Source: Microbacterium indicum DSM 19969 (lineage in GTDB: Bacteria > Actinomycetota > Actinomycetes > Actinomycetales > Microbacteriaceae). From it: DNA of 64,000 bases. This document shows, piece by piece, positions 5,974 through 15,675 of this stretch (position 1 is the stretch's first letter; every line of letters begins with the position of its first letter). The position numbers were made by a program, and so were the translations under genes. The stretch is taken from positions 248,001 to 312,000 of the forward strand of contig NZ_AULR01000002.1 in the NCBI RefSeq assembly GCF_000422385.1, given 5' to 3'. The notes under the pieces are model-generated. The model searched no databases, was not told where the DNA came from, and was given only the letters and a program-made list of their open reading frames with translations.

Positions 5974-7505
5974 CAGGCGTACCTCCCTTCGAGCCACCAG
6001 CCGTCGCCCTCGCGCACCGCGAGCCACGCGGATCCCGCGTCGTCGACGAGCTGGAAGCGCCACGCGCGGCGTGCGTGCGCGGCGTCCCACCCGCGCTCGA
6101 CGACGGGCCACGGGCCCGCCCACGCCGTGACGGCGCGGGATCCGATCGCGGCCGGCTCGGCCGTGACGAAGCCGCGGTCGTCGATCGCGACCTCGGCGCC
6201 TCCCTCTCCCGTGACGCGCGCGGGGCGCGGCGGGCGGAAGACCTCGGCGGGCAGCGGATCGGGGAGGGATCCGGGCCACGGCTCGTCGCGGCGCCGCTCG
6301 GCCGTGCGCGCGTCGCCCCACGGCACGTCGGTCTCGCGCTCGGCGAGCCACCGGCCGCCCCCGAGCACGGGCGTCACGACGCCCCGGTGGCCGAGCGCCG
6401 CCTGCACGCGCGTCATCGCGTGATGGGCGCGGTCGTCTGGGCCCTGGCCGACGAGCGCGGGCTGGTGCGCGGATCCGTCGTCGACCGCCTCGGGCTCGAG
6501 CCGCACGAGCGCGACCCCGCCGTCGCTCTCGTCGCGCTCGAGCTGCCACCGCACACGGTCGACGACGCTCGCAGCGTCGAAGGTCGCGGGATGCTGCCAG
6601 ACCCGCTCGCTGCGCCCGCCGAGGTCTCCCTCGATCGTGACGCGCACGGCCGTGATCACGAGGCCCTCGGCCGCGACGCCGTCGACGAACGCGTCGGCCG
6701 TCTGCCGCACGGCGAACGCCACCTGGTCGGCGATCTCGAGGGCCGGCTCGAACGCGATCTCGCGCGCGAGCTCGGGAGGAGGGATGCGCGGCACGACGGG
6801 GCGCGAGTCGAGGCCCGCCGCGAGCCGCTGCAGGCGCAGCCCGCGGAAGCCGAGGCGCTCGCGCACGCGCTCGGGATCGAGGCGCGCGACGTCGCCGAGC
6901 GTGCGCACGCCGAGCCGAACGAAGAGCGCCGCGACGTCGTCGTCGCCGAGCGCCTGGACGGGCAGGGGCGCGAGGAAGCGCCCGGCCTCTCCCGGAGGGA
7001 CGACGCTGACCGGCGCGGAGGCCGCGCGCGCCGCCTGCTCGGCCGTGAACACTCCGTCGGCGACGCCCGCCCGCGCGCCCGTGACGCCCTCGGCCTCGAG
7101 GGCGTCGACGAGGGCTCGCGCCGCGGGCTCCTCTCCCCGGTAGAAGCGGGAGGGGCCGCGGGCGCGCAGGGCGGCGAGGCCGGGGCGCAGCGGCTCGATG
7201 CCGGGCGCGAGCTCTTCGAGGGCGGCGAGGACGCGATGGAACGCGCGGGCGTCGCGCTCGTCGTCGGCGCGCACGATGACGAGCCGCGCGCAGGCCGCCT
7301 GCGCGTCGCGCCGCCGCTGGCCGCGCCGCACGCCCTCGGCTCGCGCCGCGGCGCTGCACGCGACGACGCGGTTCGCGTGCATCACGGCGATCGGGGCGTC
7401 GGGGTCGGGGCGCTCGGCCCCGATCTCACGGGCGCGCGTGCGCAGGTGCGCCGTGACGGGCCAGTCGGGCAGCCACAGCACGATGACGCGCTCGGGAGCG
7501 CTCAT
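5973..7505 (-). CDS. imuB: ImuB, Y-family polymerase-like mutasome protein
   Basis: The protein has 510 residues. The N-terminus (VIVLWLPDWPVTAH) aligns with the start of Y-family polymerases, but the metal-binding acidic residue normally at this position is absent, as is typical of ImuB. An HhH-like section is visible near residues 180-230 (LGVRTLGDVARL, RLGFRGLRLQRLAAGL). In the known system ImuB bridges DnaE2, ImuA' and the beta clamp rather than synthesising DNA. The start at 7505 overlaps the imuA' stop by four bases (ATGA), and the stop overlaps dnaE2 by one base. I did not find an unambiguous beta-clamp-binding pentapeptide by eye. Confidence 0.9.
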   Translation of the reverse strand: MSAPERVIVLWLPDWPVTAHLRTRAREIGAERPDPDAPIAVMHANRVVACSAAARAEGVRRGQRRRDAQAACARLVIVRADDERDARAFHRVLAALEELAPGIEPLRPGLAALRARGPSRFYRGEEPAARALVDALEAEGVTGARAGVADGVFTAEQAARAASAPVSVVPPGEAGRFLAPLPVQALGDDDVAALFVRLGVRTLGDVARLDPERVRERLGFRGLRLQRLAAGLDSRPVVPRIPPPELAREIAFEPALEIADQVAFAVRQTADAFVDGVAAEGLVITAVRVTIEGDLGGRSERVWQHPATFDAASVVDRVRWQLERDESDGGVALVRLEPEAVDDGSAHQPALVGQGPDDRAHHAMTRVQAALGHRGVVTPVLGGGRWLAERETDVPWGDARTAERRRDEPWPGSLPDPLPAEVFRPPRPARVTGEGGAEVAIDDRGFVTAEPAAIGSRAVTAWAGPWPVVERGWDAAHARRAWRFQLVDDAGSAWLAVREGDGWWLEGRYA

Positions 7506-8200
7506 GACGCCACCGCCTGCAGGCGCCGCCGCTCGGGCACGGCCTCGACGGATCCGGAGGGGCCGGGGAGCAGGACGCGCACCGTGCGGGGGTGCGGCAT
7601 CTGCCGCCCGCGCGCCGCGATCGTCACGGAGCGCGAGGTGAGGAGCCCGCGCCCGCGGCCGAGGCCGCTCCACTCGGGCGTGTTCATCGCGAGCGATGCC
7701 TCGGCGCCCGGCCAGGGGCCCACGACGAGGAGCGCGCTGCCGCGGTCGCGCAGCCGCGCGTCGAGCCGCTGCACCTCGCCGGACGAGGCGCGGCGCGGCG
7801 GGCGCACGGCGACGAGGGGGAAGACCTCGGCCGCCGACGCCGTCGCCGAGATCCACCGGTCGCCCGGCCGCGGGATCAGCGCGATCCGCTGCGGATCCAC
7901 GCCGTGCCCCGCGCCGGCCTCGGCCGACAGGTCAGGCAGGCCCACAGCCGCGCACCACGACCCCCGCCGGGACGTCTCGCCGAGGAGCGCGAGGACGAGG
8001 CTCGCCGAGTCGGGGAGCGCGTACGCCGCGCCCGGCCGGAGCCCGCCGCCGGGGAAGAGCGGCGCCAGCGCGCTCGGGACCGCGAGTCGGTCGGGCGTCG
8101 CCGTGCGACGCTGCATCTGGCCGATCTGCGTGCGCAGGCGGGTGAGCTGCGCGACCTGATCGGCCCGCAGCGCGCTCTCGCGAAGAGCCGCCATCCCCAT
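7502..8200 (-). CDS. imuA: ImuA' (RecA/SulA-like) mutasome protein
   Basis: The protein has 232 residues and is the first gene of the imuA'-imuB-dnaE2 operon. It has the RecA-like small-domain layout of this family: the segment LFPGGGLRPGAAYAL at about 49-63, strand-like SLVLALLG, and SALLVVGPWPG near 155. A classical Walker A motif is not preserved. Two Met codons are possible, at 8200 and 8194. I chose 8200 because a TAGACT -10 box ends exactly six bases before it, implying a leaderless mRNA. Expression should be damage-inducible, because a LexA-type box fills the promoter spacer. Confidence 0.88.
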   Translation of the reverse strand: MGMAALRESALRADQVAQLTRLRTQIGQMQRRTATPDRLAVPSALAPLFPGGGLRPGAAYALPDSASLVLALLGETSRRGSWCAAVGLPDLSAEAGAGHGVDPQRIALIPRPGDRWISATASAAEVFPLVAVRPPRRASSGEVQRLDARLRDRGSALLVVGPWPGAEASLAMNTPEWSGLGRGRGLLTSRSVTIAARGRQMPHPRTVRVLLPGPSGSVEAVPERRRLQAVAS

Positions 8201-8206
8201 GCCCCC

Positions 8207-8235
8207 AGTCTAGAAAGTATGTTCGATGATGCCAA
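8207..8235 (-). promoter_or_regulatory. imu operon promoter with LexA-type box in the spacer
   Basis: On the minus strand TTGGCA (8230-8235) and TAGACT (8207-8212) are separated by exactly 17 bases, followed by six bases and the imuA' ATG. The spacer holds TCGAACATACTTTCTA (8211-8226), matching the actinobacterial SOS box TCGAAC-N4-GTTCGA at 10 of 12 positions; one half is perfect. LexA bound there would block RNA polymerase directly. Confidence 0.8.
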
Positions 8236-8296
8236 GTGGCAGATCGATCATCTTTCGAACCTCCGACATGCGAAGCGTCGCCCCGCCGATCGCCCG

Positions 8297-8354
8297 TTCG
8301 CGAGTGCGAAACCGCTTCGCGAGTGCACTCGCGAGGCGGGAAGGCACTCGCGAA
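8297..8354. repeat. 58-bp nested palindromic element, copy A
   Basis: The architecture is 11-4-28-4-11. Outer arms are TTCGCGAGTGC (8297-8307) and GCACTCGCGAA (8344-8354). The inner 28-base palindrome (8312-8339) pairs in 13 of 14 positions and contains an 18-base perfect core (8317-8334). Four copies of the TCGCGAGTGC half-site are thus arranged forward, forward, reverse, reverse. The four-base spacers differ from copy B, while the arms are conserved. It lies upstream of the DUF559 remnant. Confidence 0.9.
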
Positions 8355-8388
8355 CCGGGGCCTGTGGAGAACTTCCGACGGCGGCCCC

Positions 8389-9002
8389 GAGGCGGAGAGG
8401 GCCGACGCGTGGGTGCGGATCCGCGCGTATGCGCCCCTCATGCCGCCCGATGCGTTCTTCGTCGGTGCGACGGCCGCCCTGATCGGAGGGGCGCCCCTCC
8501 CGGGGGGCTCCATGCCGAGCTCGACGTCGCGCTCCGGTTCCCGCGCACGCCGCCGCGCAGATCCGGGATCCGCGGGCCTCGCGTCTCGGTGGACGGGCAC
8601 GTGGCCGAGGTCGCGGGTCTGCGCACGTCCGATCCCGCGCTCACGTGGGCGAACCTCCGCCGCTCGCTGTCGCGTGCCAGGACCGGATCCTCGTCTCGCC
8701 CCGAGACGTGGACGCGCCTCATGCTCGTCGACGACGGGCTCCCCGAGCCCGAGATCGACTACGACATCGTCGACGAGAGCGGCCGCTTCGTCGCCTGCGC
8801 CGACCTCGCCTACCCCGAGCGCCGGGTCCTCATCGAGTACGAGGGCGAGGGGCACAGGGAGCGGGCGCAGTTCGAGCGCGACATCGACCGCTATGCACGG
8901 CTGCAGGCGCTCGGCTGGCGCGAGGTCCGGCTGACGGCGCGCCTCGTCTTCCACGACCGGCGTGAGGTGCTGCGGCGCGTCTGGGAGACGGTCGGGCGGT
9001 GA
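8389..9002 (+). pseudogene. DUF559 / Vsr-like nuclease-fold gene, frameshifted
   Basis: Two reading frames together give one protein. The first (about 8389-8505) encodes an N-terminal part with FFVGATAALIGGAPLP, a segment usual in actinobacterial AbiEi-like/DUF559 proteins. The second (about 8505-9002) encodes LHAELDVALRFP, then VDLAYP-like ADLAYPERRVLIEYEGEGH and RYARLQALGWREVRLTA, the DUF559 core with a restriction-endonuclease fold. The switch falls in a run of six G at about 8496-8501; seven G would restore one frame. It is therefore either a true pseudogene or a homopolymer sequencing error. No convincing start codon or ribosome site is visible. It is bracketed exactly by the two 58-bp palindromes. 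Confidence 0.7.
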
Positions 9003-9010
9003 CCCGTCCG

Positions 9011-9068
9011 TTCGCGAGTGCCGTTCCGCCTCGCGAGTGCACTCGCGAGGCGGAAGCGCACTCGCGAA
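9011..9068. repeat. 58-bp nested palindromic element, copy B
   Basis: It has the same 11-4-28-4-11 layout as copy A. Outer arms are TTCGCGAGTGC (9011-9021) and GCACTCGCGAA (9058-9068). The inner 28 bases (9026-9053) are a perfect palindrome, CCGCCTCGCGAGTG plus its complement. It starts eight bases after the DUF559 stop and ends eight bases before the stop of the convergent App1-like gene, so it may also serve as a bidirectional terminator. Confidence 0.9.
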
Positions 9069-9075
9069 GCCGGGA

Positions 9076-10101
9076 TCAGTCCAGCAGGCCCACGTTCTCG
9101 AGGCGCTTCGCGATGCCCGCACCGTCGTCGTCCGTGACCCACGGCACGCCCGCGGCCGAGTGGTCGTCGACCGACGTGCGGCCGCCCGCGAGAACCGCCT
9201 CGGCCGGCGTCAGGCGGCGGATCGCGACGCCCGCGACGGAGGAGGGATGGTCGCGTGTGAACTCGGTGTAGATCTCGTCGTCGTGCTGGCCGTCGTCGCC
9301 GATCAGCAGCCACTCGACGTGCGGGAACTCCTCGGCGAGGCGGCGGAGGTTGCTCTCCTTGTGCTCCCGCCCGCTGCGGAACCACCTGTCGTGCGTCGGG
9401 CCCCAGTCGGTCAGCAGCATCGATCCACGGGGGAACAGGTTGCGGTGCAGGAAGCGGTTGAGCGTCGGCGCGACGTTCCACGCGCCGGTCGAGAGATAGA
9501 CCATCGGCGCGCCGGGGTTCTGCCGCATGAGTCGCTCGAGCAGGACGGCCATGCCGGGGACGGGCTGGCGCGCGTGCTCGGTCACGACGAACGAGTTCCA
9601 CGCCGCGAGCAGCGGGCGCGGGAGCGCCGTGACCATGACGGTGTCGTCGACGTCGCACACGACGCCGAAGCGCACGGCGGGATCCACGACGAAGACGCGC
9701 GCCTCGACGGGCTCGGATCCCGAGGTCGAGACCTCGTAGGTCTGCCAGCCCGGCTCGAGCGCGGCGGGCAGCACGACGTCGACGACGCCGCCGCGGTCGG
9801 CCACGACGTCGTGCGTCTGCCCCGAGACCGTCACCGTCACGGTCGTGTAGGCGACGGGGATCCCGAGGAACGCCCGGAAGCCGCGCACGCCCGCGCGCTT
9901 CTCCTTCGCCTTCGGCAGGATCAGCACGCGCCCGAGGACGCGGATCCACCCGTCGCCGCCGTAGGCCGGGAACGGCACGATCTGCGGCACGAGGCCCCGG
10001 CGACGGGCGCGGCGCTCGCGCCACGCGTGGAAGCGACGCTCGATACGGGCGACCCAGTGGATCCTCGGGGACTCGTCGCTGCGGACGGAACGGGAAGGCA
10101 T
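9076..10101 (-). CDS. App1-like phosphatidate phosphatase family protein (DUF2183)
   Basis: The protein has 341 residues. The haloacid-dehalogenase-type motif GVVCDVDDTVMVT near residue 157 supplies the two catalytic aspartates. Later family elements are VYLSTGAWN and LLIGDDGQHDDEIY near residue 280. Yeast App1 dephosphorylates phosphatidate; the bacterial members are annotated only by similarity, so the substrate is unproven. Residues 30-140 form the N-terminal beta-rich part. There is no clear signal peptide. The start at 10101 is the only Met before the conserved part and lies five bases after the dedA stop, so the two membrane-lipid-related genes probably share a transcript. Confidence 0.85.
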   Translation of the reverse strand: MPSRSVRSDESPRIHWVARIERRFHAWRERRARRRGLVPQIVPFPAYGGDGWIRVLGRVLILPKAKEKRAGVRGFRAFLGIPVAYTTVTVTVSGQTHDVVADRGGVVDVVLPAALEPGWQTYEVSTSGSEPVEARVFVVDPAVRFGVVCDVDDTVMVTALPRPLLAAWNSFVVTEHARQPVPGMAVLLERLMRQNPGAPMVYLSTGAWNVAPTLNRFLHRNLFPRGSMLLTDWGPTHDRWFRSGREHKESNLRRLAEEFPHVEWLLIGDDGQHDDEIYTEFTRDHPSSVAGVAIRRLTPAEAVLAGGRTSVDDHSAAGVPWVTDDDGAGIAKRLENVGLLD

Positions 10102-10106
10102 CGCGC

Positions 10107-13431: not shown

Positions 13432-15675
13432 TCATCGTTCGCGCCAGATCGTGAGGTCCGGGCTCGTGCTGATCAGCACGAGCCCGTCTTCGTCTGAGCG
13501 GGCGACCGACGCGCCCGCCTGGGCGAGCACGGCGAGGGTGTCGGGGTTCGGGTGCCCGTAGTCGTTCTCGCCGACCCCGATGAGGGCGACCTCGGGCGCC
13601 ACCTCGAGGTACAGCCGCGGAAGCTGGTCGCGGCTGCCGTGGTGCGAGACCTTCACGACGTCGTAGGCGCCGCCGAGCTCGGGCTCGAGAAAGCTCTGCG
13701 ACGCCTCGGACAGATCGCCGAGCAGCAGGGTGCGCGGGATCCCTCCGCCCGCGACGTCGAGCACGAGGCTCGTGTCGTTCCCGGGTTCGAAGGCCCGGGA
13801 TCCGGCTCGCGGCCACAGCAGGCGCCACGCGGCCGTTCCGAGCGCGCCCGACATTCCCGCCGATCCCTCGACGACGCGGTCGGCGCCGAGCCCCTCGAGC
13901 ACCTCGGGGTCGTCGTCGGGGTCCGCCGGGCCGTGGATCACGGTGCCGACACGGCCCGCGAGCGCCTCGGCCCCGCCGACGTGATCGGCGTCGAAGTGGG
14001 TCACGAAGGCGATGTCGACGTGCGAGACGCCGAGCCGGTCGAGGCAGGCGGCGAGCGCTGCGGGCTCCGGCCCCGTGTCGACGAGGGCGGTCGCACCCGC
14101 TGAGCGCAGCAGGACGGCGTCGCCCTGGCCGACATCGCACAGCGCGATGGACCAGTCGCGCGGCGCGGTGAGGGGCCCCGCGACGCTCGTGACGGCGACG
14201 GATCCCGCGGCGACGCCGAGGACGAGCGCGAGGACCGCCGCCGAGGCCCGGCGCACGGCGCGGCCGGCGGAAGACGGCGGGACGCGCACGATCAGGGCGA
14301 CGGCGCAGACCCCGAGCGCGGCGAGCGCGAGGAAGCCGAGTGCGCCGCCCGCCCACCCGAGGTCCGCCGCCGGCAGGCCCGCGAAGACCTGGGCGGTCTG
14401 CGCGACCCATGCCGACGGCAGCCAGGCGAGCGCCGCCGCCCCGAGTGCGAGGGGCGGGAAGGGCTGAGCGAGGCAGGCGACGAGGCCGAGGACTGTGGCG
14501 GCCGGGGCCGCGGGACCCGCGATCATGTTGGCGACGACGCCGTAGAGAGCGACCTGCGGCGCGAAGAGGACGATGATGGGCGCGCACACGACCTGGGCCG
14601 CGAGCGGCACCGCGATCCCGAGCGCGACGGCGCGCGGCATCCACCGCCCGAGCCCATCCGCGAGCGGCTGGGCGAGCAGCAGGAGCGCACCCGTCGCGGC
14701 GGCCGACAGCAGGAAGCCGTAGTCGGTCGCGAGCCAGGGATCGGCGACGACGAGCGACGCGACGGCGAGGCTCAGCACCGCGACCCCCGCGCCCTGGCGG
14801 CCGAGGAGCACGGCGAGCATCGCGACCGCCGCCATCGCGCCGGCCCGGATGACGCTCGCCTCGGGGGTCACGAGTACGACGAATCCGGCGAGAGCGGCGA
14901 GCGAGACGCCGAGCCGCACGCTGCGGCGCGCGCCGCACGCGGCGCAGGCCCCGAACGCGATGCCGACGACGAGCGCGCAGTTCGCTCCGGAGACCGCCGT
15001 CAGGTGCGAGAGCGACGACGCCTTCATCGCGGCGTCGAGGTCGAGCCCCACCCCGCTCGTCTCGCCGACCGAGAGGCCGGGGAGCAGACCCGCACCCGGG
15101 GCGGGGAGCCCGCGCACGACGTCGCCGACGAAGCCGCGTCGGAGGGTGCTCGCGGCGCCGTACACGTGAGGCGGCGGGTCGCGCACGCGCACGTCGTCGG
15201 CGAAGACGATCGCGACCGACGCGTCGCCGGGCCCCGTGGGGCGCGCGCCGCCGTCGACCTCGACCCGCGCCCCGAGGTCGAGCCCCGCGACGGGGCCGTC
15301 GGCAGGCCAGAGCACCGTGACCGTCGCTCCCGTGGCGACGGCGGTGCCGGTGAAGCGCAGCTGTCCGGACCCTGGTTCGACCTTCGTCGTGACGTCGACG
15401 ACGAGGCCCGCGGCGACGCCGTCGAGCTCGTCGGCCGCGGCGTCTCGCGCGGGCTGCAGGATCGCGACGTGCCCCGTGACGAGCGCGGCCCCGGCGCAGG
15501 CGACGAGGACGAGGGCCGCGACGGGCGCGCGTCGAGCGGCCGCGAGGCACGAGACGGCCGCCGCCCACAGCCCCGCGGAGATGCCGCCGGCGGCGTGGGG
15601 GAGGAGGACCGCGGCGAGCGCCGCCGCCCACACCGCGAGCGCGACGGGCAGGAGGCGCAGATCGCGGGAGGTCAT
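13432..15675 (-). CDS. comEC: ComEC/Rec2 DNA-uptake channel
   Basis: The protein has 747 residues. An N-terminal set of membrane segments is followed by an OB-like domain (about 90-165), the Competence domain with many membrane helices (about 200-460), and a C-terminal metallo-beta-lactamase-like domain. That domain contains THFDADHVGG near residue 558 and VSHHGSRDQ near 680. In competent bacteria ComEC forms the inner-membrane channel for single-stranded DNA. The start overlaps the comEA stop by four bases, so the two are translated together. No pilus or comF-type genes are in the window, so transformability is not established. Confidence 0.93.
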   Translation of the reverse strand: MTSRDLRLLPVALAVWAAALAAVLLPHAAGGISAGLWAAAVSCLAAARRAPVAALVLVACAGAALVTGHVAILQPARDAAADELDGVAAGLVVDVTTKVEPGSGQLRFTGTAVATGATVTVLWPADGPVAGLDLGARVEVDGGARPTGPGDASVAIVFADDVRVRDPPPHVYGAASTLRRGFVGDVVRGLPAPGAGLLPGLSVGETSGVGLDLDAAMKASSLSHLTAVSGANCALVVGIAFGACAACGARRSVRLGVSLAALAGFVVLVTPEASVIRAGAMAAVAMLAVLLGRQGAGVAVLSLAVASLVVADPWLATDYGFLLSAAATGALLLLAQPLADGLGRWMPRAVALGIAVPLAAQVVCAPIIVLFAPQVALYGVVANMIAGPAAPAATVLGLVACLAQPFPPLALGAAALAWLPSAWVAQTAQVFAGLPAADLGWAGGALGFLALAALGVCAVALIVRVPPSSAGRAVRRASAAVLALVLGVAAGSVAVTSVAGPLTAPRDWSIALCDVGQGDAVLLRSAGATALVDTGPEPAALAACLDRLGVSHVDIAFVTHFDADHVGGAEALAGRVGTVIHGPADPDDDPEVLEGLGADRVVEGSAGMSGALGTAAWRLLWPRAGSRAFEPGNDTSLVLDVAGGGIPRTLLLGDLSEASQSFLEPELGGAYDVVKVSHHGSRDQLPRLYLEVAPEVALIGVGENDYGHPNPDTLAVLAQAGASVARSDEDGLVLISTSPDLTIWRER

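Follow-up and report, generated by a model that had tools for sequence, protein, structure and literature searches.

Genetic organization of the imuA'-app1 locus

Within the window, by which the whole 64,000-nt stretch of Microbacterium indicum DSM 19969 DNA under analysis is meant, the remnant of a nuclease gene is located between imuA' and a gene specifying an App1-like phosphatidate phosphatase, and is bracketed by two 58-bp nested palindromes with an 11-4-28-4-11 layout, an arrangement already reported in a preliminary description of this DNA and present as reported (Table 1). The assignment of this gap to imuA' and app1 is sustained by Pfam on the App1 side; the name ImuA' is that of the preliminary description and is backed by the conserved neighborhood, as ImuA' orthologs adjoin the unit in Microbacterium suaedae, Microbacterium sp. 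G2-8, genome G148, and a MAG.

Table 1. Coordinates of the features at the imuA'-app1 locus (window positions)
Feature	Position	Strand	Properties and basis
ImuA' gene (name from the preliminary description), left neighbor	7502..8200	-	ORF; adjoins IMS-family gene; orthologs beside the unit in relatives
Palindrome copy 1	8297..8354	.	58 bp, 11-4-28-4-11; dyad weakly extended to 8293-8358; sequence, fold z -6.95
AbiEi-like/Vsr-like nuclease gene remnant	8377..9002	+	tblastn pieces 8377-8508 and 8490-8996; alignment to ortholog
DUF559 nuclease core, still readable	8802..8990	+	Pfam DUF559, residues 193-255 of the ORF starting at 8226
Palindrome copy 2	9011..9068	.	58 bp, layout as copy 1; 27/29 positions paired; fold z -8.10
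App1-like phosphatidate phosphatase gene, right neighbor	9076..10104	-	PF09949, E 2.7e-48

The outer arms of the palindromes, TTCGCGAGTGC and GCACTCGCGAA, pair by eye at 11/11 positions in both copies, and the 28-nt core pairs at 13/14 positions in copy 1 and at 14/14 in copy 2. The further claim of a repeated half-site, in which the arms are kept and the spacers vary, holds for the arms and for the half-site, the TCGCGAGTGC unit being found four times in each copy; the 4-nt spacers pair (by eye) at 0/4 and 2/4 positions. A repeat search independently returned copy 2 as 29-nt arms with 93% complementarity and the two copies together as a 70-nt direct repeat (84%), and upon folding as single-stranded DNA none of 200 shuffled sequences was as stable as either copy. 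A third copy, which the preliminary description had not noticed, is indeed absent from the 64-kb window, and the pattern TCGCGAGTGCN{5,14}TCGCGAGTGCACTCGCGA, with its fixed parts matched exactly, retrieved only the two known copies from the 2.81-Mb genome. The exact window palindrome occurs in 1 of 295 genus genomes, namely its own, and in none of the 294 others. Two miRNA-family matches were obtained, to copy 2 only and far under the gathering scores, and were taken as hairpin artefacts.

The gene between the palindromes had been described as a DUF559 remnant, a designation which is confirmed both by Pfam, with matches to DUF559 (E 2.4e-4; above the family cut-off) and MTES_1575 (E 1.7e-6; below the cut-off), and by its degradation relative to the intact ortholog of M. 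suaedae, compared to which the N-terminal module and a central block are lost and the frame changes near position 8500. The enzyme of the window unit is thus dead, and only its two palindromes are still regular; since the gene is broken, these palindromes are probably relics. The longest mechanically called ORF (8226-9002) begins ahead of palindrome 1 and continues across it in frame, and automated annotation might therefore mistake the palindrome for coding sequence.

Matched palindromes flank nuclease genes across actinobacteria

Relatives of this DUF559/MTES_1575 nuclease were identified in 139 of 149 genus genomes and in 114 of 149 order genomes. The genus set comprises the window genome (G000) and, among others, Microbacterium kyungheense (G065), Microbacterium jejuense (G028), M. 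suaedae (G043), and Frigoribacterium sp. JB110 (G026). Sixty loci of 20 kb were assessed, two from the window genome and 58 from other genus genomes, the latter being drawn from the top of the list of relatives (with some short-contig hits skipped) and, therefore, resembling the nuclease of the window. Palindromes with a score of at least 15 reach a density of 8.7 per 10 kb immediately upstream and 8.5 immediately downstream of the nuclease gene, with all other bins lying between 0 and 2.8. The gene was bracketed by a matched repeat pair at 40 of the 60 loci at a score of at least 16, compared to 27 of 704 control intervals of the same geometry in those loci, and at 30 of the 60 loci at a score of at least 20, compared to 8 of 704, which represents a 17-fold and a 44-fold enrichment, respectively. 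Four of the eight controls reaching the higher score (L053, L055, L056, and L066; near gene-oriented position 15200) represent one region approximately 5 kb downstream of a single shared nuclease site in four species, which carries a strong repeat pair. Earlier controls gave a concordant result, with pairs at 41 of 61 loci (the window included) against 2 of 57 shifted positions and 1.7% of 297 cross-locus comparisons.

The association extends beyond the genus. At the order level, pairs were found at 21 of 25 loci, and at 20 of the 24 outside the genus, a count made without a control set of its own; these 25 were read out of 30 returned loci, with L183, L186, L187, L188, and L211 omitted as in-genus or own-genome loci and the in-genus locus L184 kept. 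Among named actinobacterial loci selected by protein alone (the best 80 of 241), pairs were present at 52 of 80, compared to 1 of 73 controls, or at 48 of 74 upon removal of six genes already contained in the first set. The paired loci include those of Arthrobacter, Cryobacterium, Herbiconiux, Leifsonia, Agromyces, and Curtobacterium (3/11), and among these 80 loci no flanking pairs were seen in Pseudoclavibacter (0/4) or Frondihabitans (0/2). A pair above the threshold was absent from 20 of the 60 genus-set loci and from 28 of the 80 named loci. In the window genome itself, all five PF04480 loci, i.e., the window, L102, L103, L005 (18.5), and L006 (22.5), possess matched flanking repeats with a pair score of at least 16, and a further relative, more distant and located on contig C18, scores 15.5, just below this threshold. 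The preliminary description had suggested that a link between such palindromes and nuclease genes be examined against chance, and these counts place the link well beyond it.

Palindrome arms are locus specific and kept around a variable center

The anatomy of the repeats was established from 36 loci with clear palindromes on both sides whose two copies are at least 55% identical. The palindromes are particular to each locus and consist of two conserved arms, each of approximately 20 nt, on either side of a free center. Identity between the two flanking copies amounts to 0.78 to 0.99 in the outer 20 nt and to 0.39 to 0.52 in the inner part, and pairing within a copy declines from the arms to the center in parallel with this between-copy identity. 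With regard to the state of individual pairs, 659 were unchanged, 36 had undergone double changes that keep the pairing, 202 were broken in one copy, and 143 were unpaired in both. As judged from sequence comparison, kept outer arms combined with variable inner positions represent the pattern that two recognition arms around an unconstrained center would leave.

The relationship between arm sequence and protein sequence was assessed for the 88 of 134 distinct loci which possess a clear palindrome and a sufficiently long protein, yielding 3828 pairs that are not independent of each other. Arm similarity correlated with N-terminal identity when C-terminal identity was accounted for (partial Mantel 0.147, p 0.001, the lowest value attainable with 1000 permutations), and the reciprocal comparison with the C-terminal nuclease domain, given the N-terminal identity, returned 0.030 (p 0.19). 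For the 861 pairs located at different sites, the corresponding values were 0.110 (p 0.021) for the N-terminal domain and 0.061 (p 0.11) for the C-terminal domain, and an earlier test of different sites with 41 loci had given p 0.064. Arms are shared by 3 of 9 different-site pairs with 50 to 60% N-terminal identity, by 0 of 1 above 60%, and by 1 of 851 below 50%. Arm similarity, therefore, appears to follow the N-terminal half of the protein more than its nuclease half, with a weaker signal, and thin evidence, between different chromosomal sites. The window remnant and the nuclease of Frigoribacterium sp. JB110, which are 67% identical over the nuclease domain, are located at different sites and have similar arms. 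Flanks are shared by 119 of 820 locus pairs; most of the nuclease genes occupy few fixed sites at which they descend vertically, so that movement, where it takes place, would be rare.

The nuclease is predicted to combine an AbiEi-like module with a Vsr-like domain

The M. kyungheense protein was modeled over 318 residues with a mean pLDDT of 92.5. For its C-terminal domain, the best structural match is the homing endonuclease I-Bth0305I (3r3p; Z 9.8 over 95 residues, rmsd 2.5), followed by an endonuclease-like protein of Neisseria (3hrl; Z 9.1) and by Vsr (1cw0; Z 8.3). Sequence profiles point weakly to the same nuclease fold (3r3p; E 0.049), and residues E217, E261, H267, and D277 are invariant in the nuclease alignment. 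The N-terminal half resembles AbiEi in a structurally loose manner (6y8q; Z 7.7, 176 residues, rmsd 6.4). Foldseek alone returned no match at E 0.001 for this model, and Pfam assigned the nucleases to MTES_1575/DUF559, with a weak AbiEi_4 match in L102 only and one weak DUF6302 hit. The model thus suggests an AbiEi-like module, for which the match is weak, fused to a Vsr/I-Bth0305I-like nuclease. I-Bth0305I is reported to dimerize on its target, which is nearly 60 bp long (PMC3943268).

Such a predicted fold is what would be expected of a restriction-like nuclease active in defense, for which the palindrome would mark self or a target, and the MTES_1575 restriction endonuclease domain has been described in giant proteins for which an attack on invading DNA was proposed (PMC3710099). 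PADLOC, however, returned no match for the M. kyungheense nuclease (L230) or for the window ORF and gave a weak AbiEi match for L102 only, and we consider a role in defense to be very unlikely.

The AbiEi-like half raises the further possibility of autoregulation, or of a toxin-antitoxin-like arrangement, in which the palindromes would be operators or hairpin RNAs for the AbiEi-like domain, nothing would move, and lone copies would be accidental or would regulate other genes. AbiEi antitoxins are reported to bind promoter palindromes and repress (PMC11062541), approximately 60 nt separate the end of the upstream palindrome from the chosen start in L055, and the tracking of the N-terminal domain by the arms is as such a role would have it. 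The copy downstream of the gene, the up to 12 dispersed copies, the tandem copies, and the opposite orientations (see below) are left unexplained by this reading, which is accordingly regarded as unlikely, if still deserving attention.

One palindrome family is dispersed through several genomes

A related palindrome of approximately 60 bp, GACTTGNCGTATATG...ATATACGNCAAGTC, has 20 exact occurrences, distributed over 7 of 295 genomes, and the reversed-pattern control has none. By BLAST, 11 sites were identified in M. kyungheense, 11 in M. jejuense, and 12 in G226, with fewer in G052, G101, G137, and G049; at E 0.01, none was retrieved from 4 of 11 genomes, two of which (G113 and G156) are represented by one exact-pattern site. 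Of the 11 sites in M. kyungheense, and likewise in M. jejuense, 9 are lone copies and the other two flank the nuclease. Domain-only queries detected a nuclease within 1.5 kb at 8 of the 33 loci read around copies of this family, representing three places seen repeatedly, and none at the other 25. The copies are near-identical sequences at unrelated sites, with flanks that are unrelated by eye. Copies scattered without nuclease genes had been named in the preliminary description as evidence against its reading; such copies exist for this one family and cut against a strict view in which palindromes occur only at nucleases. For the palindrome of the window itself, no lone copy was found.

The excess of lone copies over nuclease-flanking ones would be in keeping with REP- or MITE-like palindromes mobilized by another agent, for which the nuclease would be a frequent neighbor or landing site, as would the presence of palindromes around an unrelated gene in L159 (described below). 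Neither the 17-fold and 44-fold enrichment of pairs at nuclease genes nor the finding that arm sequence follows the N-terminal domain of the nuclease is accommodated by such an agent, rendering this explanation improbable. Long ORFs with high GC3 end approximately 45 to 80 nt before a lone palindrome at L152, L214, L215, and L225, as might be anticipated if the palindromes were transcription terminators or structural hairpins at gene ends; no terminator-like site was detected in window positions 8150-9200, however, and terminators would not be expected to possess locus-specific arms or to recur as near-identical sequence at unrelated sites. Such a function is considered highly improbable.

An intergenic site with a lone palindrome was read in 14 relatives. 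G028 and G226 carry the dispersed-family palindrome there, and G052 carries one from another family; gaps of 13 to 83 nt are present in G095, G017, G012, G087, G045, G074, and G101, and other sequence (141 to 378 nt) in G062, G049, G068, and G019. At this site in M. kyungheense (L313), the gap is filled by unrelated tandem short repeats of the type GGGCATGGTCGCG.

Nuclease sites are polymorphic and the unit occurs in both orientations

The chromosomal site of the M. kyungheense nuclease was located in 99 of 99 genomes, and its state was read in the best 30 of these. The nuclease is present in 7 of 30 (L153, L154, L156, L157, L171, L175, and L176, with domain-only queries in agreement), a direct junction of 34 to 86 nt without a palindrome in 7 (L161, L163, L165, L166, L167, L178, and L180), a lone palindrome of other families in 2 (L155 and L158), palindromes around another gene in one (L159), and content fitting none of these classes in 13. 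In L159 (G095), the other gene is alpha/beta-hydrolase-like, with one palindrome copy on one side and two on the other; G017 (L158) has a lone copy of the same family, and in L160 and L177 the hydrolase gene is present without such palindromes.

At the imuA'-app1 site, the unit is present in the window, M. suaedae (L047), Microbacterium sp. G2-8 (L260), and G148 (L044), and a MAG contig displays the imuA' side (L247, identical to L017); as the loci other than the window were found through the nuclease, they say nothing about the frequency of the unit at this site. In G057, imuA' and app1 are 1.6 kb apart with another gene between them, and neither a nuclease nor a GAGTGC palindrome is present. 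A search for sites in relatives that lack the unit, as proposed in the preliminary description, thus had a positive outcome, with seven of the 30 M. kyungheense-type sites being empty and G057 providing one case at imuA'-app1, with the other gene in between. Among app1 loci read with 1.5-kb flanks, imuA' was adjacent in 1 of 30, the window's own, and in M. suaedae it lies farther off (as seen in L047); with 4.8-kb flanks, imuA' was found in 1 of 39 other genomes (G057) and not in the other 38. A scan of genome contigs for App1 gave no confirmed relative.

The nuclease gene runs opposite to imuA' in the window, L044, and L247 and in the same direction in L047 and L260. The palindromes are self-complementary and can act as inverted repeats, so that cutting of the palindromes or recombination between them would be expected to invert the intervening segment; alternatively, the two orientations may stem from independent insertions. 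A search for plasmid or phage carriage found relatives in 4 of 72,556 plasmid records (Arthrobacter and Nonomuraea replicons of 0.75 to 11.9 Mb) and in 0 of 50,697 phages, and the notion that the unit is cargo of such elements was rejected.

Proposed partnership of the nuclease and its palindrome

We propose, with a probability of about 0.58, that the window unit derives by decay from a partnership widespread among actinobacteria, in which a two-domain nuclease and its cognate palindrome of approximately 58 bp form either a REP/RAYT-like or a site-specific selfish nuclease element. A protein dimer would bind the two arms of approximately 20 nt through one N-terminal module per arm, thereby placing the nuclease domains over the free center, in or near which cutting would occur. 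The two flanking palindromes would then be the ends of the gene's unit, and lone palindromes elsewhere would be further sites of the same enzyme, spread, maintained, or left behind through its activity. The preliminary description raised two possibilities, a mobile or selfish unit ending in palindromes and a REP-like element associated with a nuclease gene. Its interpretation is supported in that palindromes accompany nuclease genes systematically and a related family is dispersed in the manner of REPs, and we infer movement from these patterns. The main weakness of the proposal is that both flanking palindromes are whole, as a result of which an enzyme cutting them would cut its own locus; cutting must, therefore, be regulated, be limited to a special form of DNA, or be part of the movement itself.

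In a more specific scenario, which we regard as conceivable but unlikely, the unit would be a cut-and-paste cassette moving through its own palindromes. The nuclease dimer would cut the free center of both flanking palindromes, releasing a gene that bears half-palindromes at its ends and leaving a chromosome that closes into a lone palindrome; the released fragment could then enter any cut lone palindrome in either orientation, thereby rebuilding two whole palindromes. Such a cycle would account for the paired flanks, the conserved arms around free centers, the lone palindromes, the sites without a unit, and the opposite orientations at imuA'-app1.

Relationship to known repeat and nuclease systems

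The proposed pair of two-domain nuclease and cognate palindrome is close in architecture to REP/RAYT systems (PMC2817692, PMC3733652), in which a gene is likewise bracketed by palindromic repeats that are also dispersed between genes, and orthologous genes stay in place while the flanking repeats diverge and keep their palindromicity. Protein and repeat are described as diverging together in REP/RAYT systems, as they appear to do here (partial Mantel and different-site tests above). The enzyme, in contrast, is an IS200/IS605-like Y1 transposase in REP/RAYT systems and, according to Pfam and the model, probably an AbiEi-like module with a Vsr-like nuclease here. Of the REP heads, GTAG was seen in 0 of 142 and CGTC in 4 of 142 palindromes within the first 6 nt of either end, and the repeats, at approximately 58 bp, are longer than REPs. 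REP copy numbers are usually given as more than 100, with fewer for some families, whereas at most 12 copies were found here (one family, 11 genomes). According to PMC3733652, GTAG REPs occur in Proteobacteria, Cyanobacteria, Chloroflexi, and the PVC group, and the five phyla given for CGTC REPs do not include Actinobacteria. The present pairs were found in Actinomycetales-type genomes, which neither list names.

The fold of the catalytic domain is common to the EDxHD homing endonuclease I-Bth0305I and to Vsr (Z scores above), and the reported target of the dimeric I-Bth0305I is comparable in length to the 58-bp window palindromes. Unlike I-Bth0305I, the present enzyme is predicted to carry an N-terminal AbiEi-like module and is encoded by a free-standing gene. 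An intron inserted by homing splits its own target, whereas both palindromes flanking the nuclease gene are whole, provided that the palindrome is indeed the target. AbiEi, a type IV antitoxin that binds palindromes, is loosely matched by the N-terminal half, but here the putative AbiEi-like half is fused to a nuclease and the palindromes are present on both sides of the gene.

In the open-licence literature, we found neither a link between DUF559 or MTES_1575 and palindromes nor a described role for DUF559/MTES_1575 nuclease relatives. The bracketing of the gene, the arms changing with the N-terminal half, and the scattered copies of one family point to a hitherto undescribed partnership of repeat and enzyme that resembles known mobile palindromes while employing an unrelated enzyme. 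A cognate palindrome for each nuclease provides a testable substrate for the common DUF559/MTES_1575 relatives. If correct, the proposal would represent a second, independently built partnership of the REP-transposase type, in a group absent from the phyla listed for GTAG and CGTC REPs (PMC3733652), and would provide an extensive natural collection in which DNA-binding domains are matched to recognition arms of approximately 20 nt.

Individual loci with additional palindrome copies

Two kinds of arrangement with more than two palindrome copies were observed. In the window genome, L102 contains three copies of another 57-bp palindrome inside 1.7 kb, a family with no copy outside this locus in that genome. 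The segment L102:9130-10860 (G000:C2:206534-208246) reads palindrome, nuclease, palindrome, a gene that by eye is SAM methyltransferase-like, and palindrome, and the outer two copies have approximately 20 nt in common beyond the palindrome. In M. suaedae (L047:11501-11790) and the MAG (L247:3922-4242), degenerate GAGTGC palindromes are arranged in tandem beside the nuclease with a spacing of approximately 105 to 125 bp, and the M. suaedae array adjoins an ORF which, by eye, appears to be 2'-5' RNA-ligase-like.
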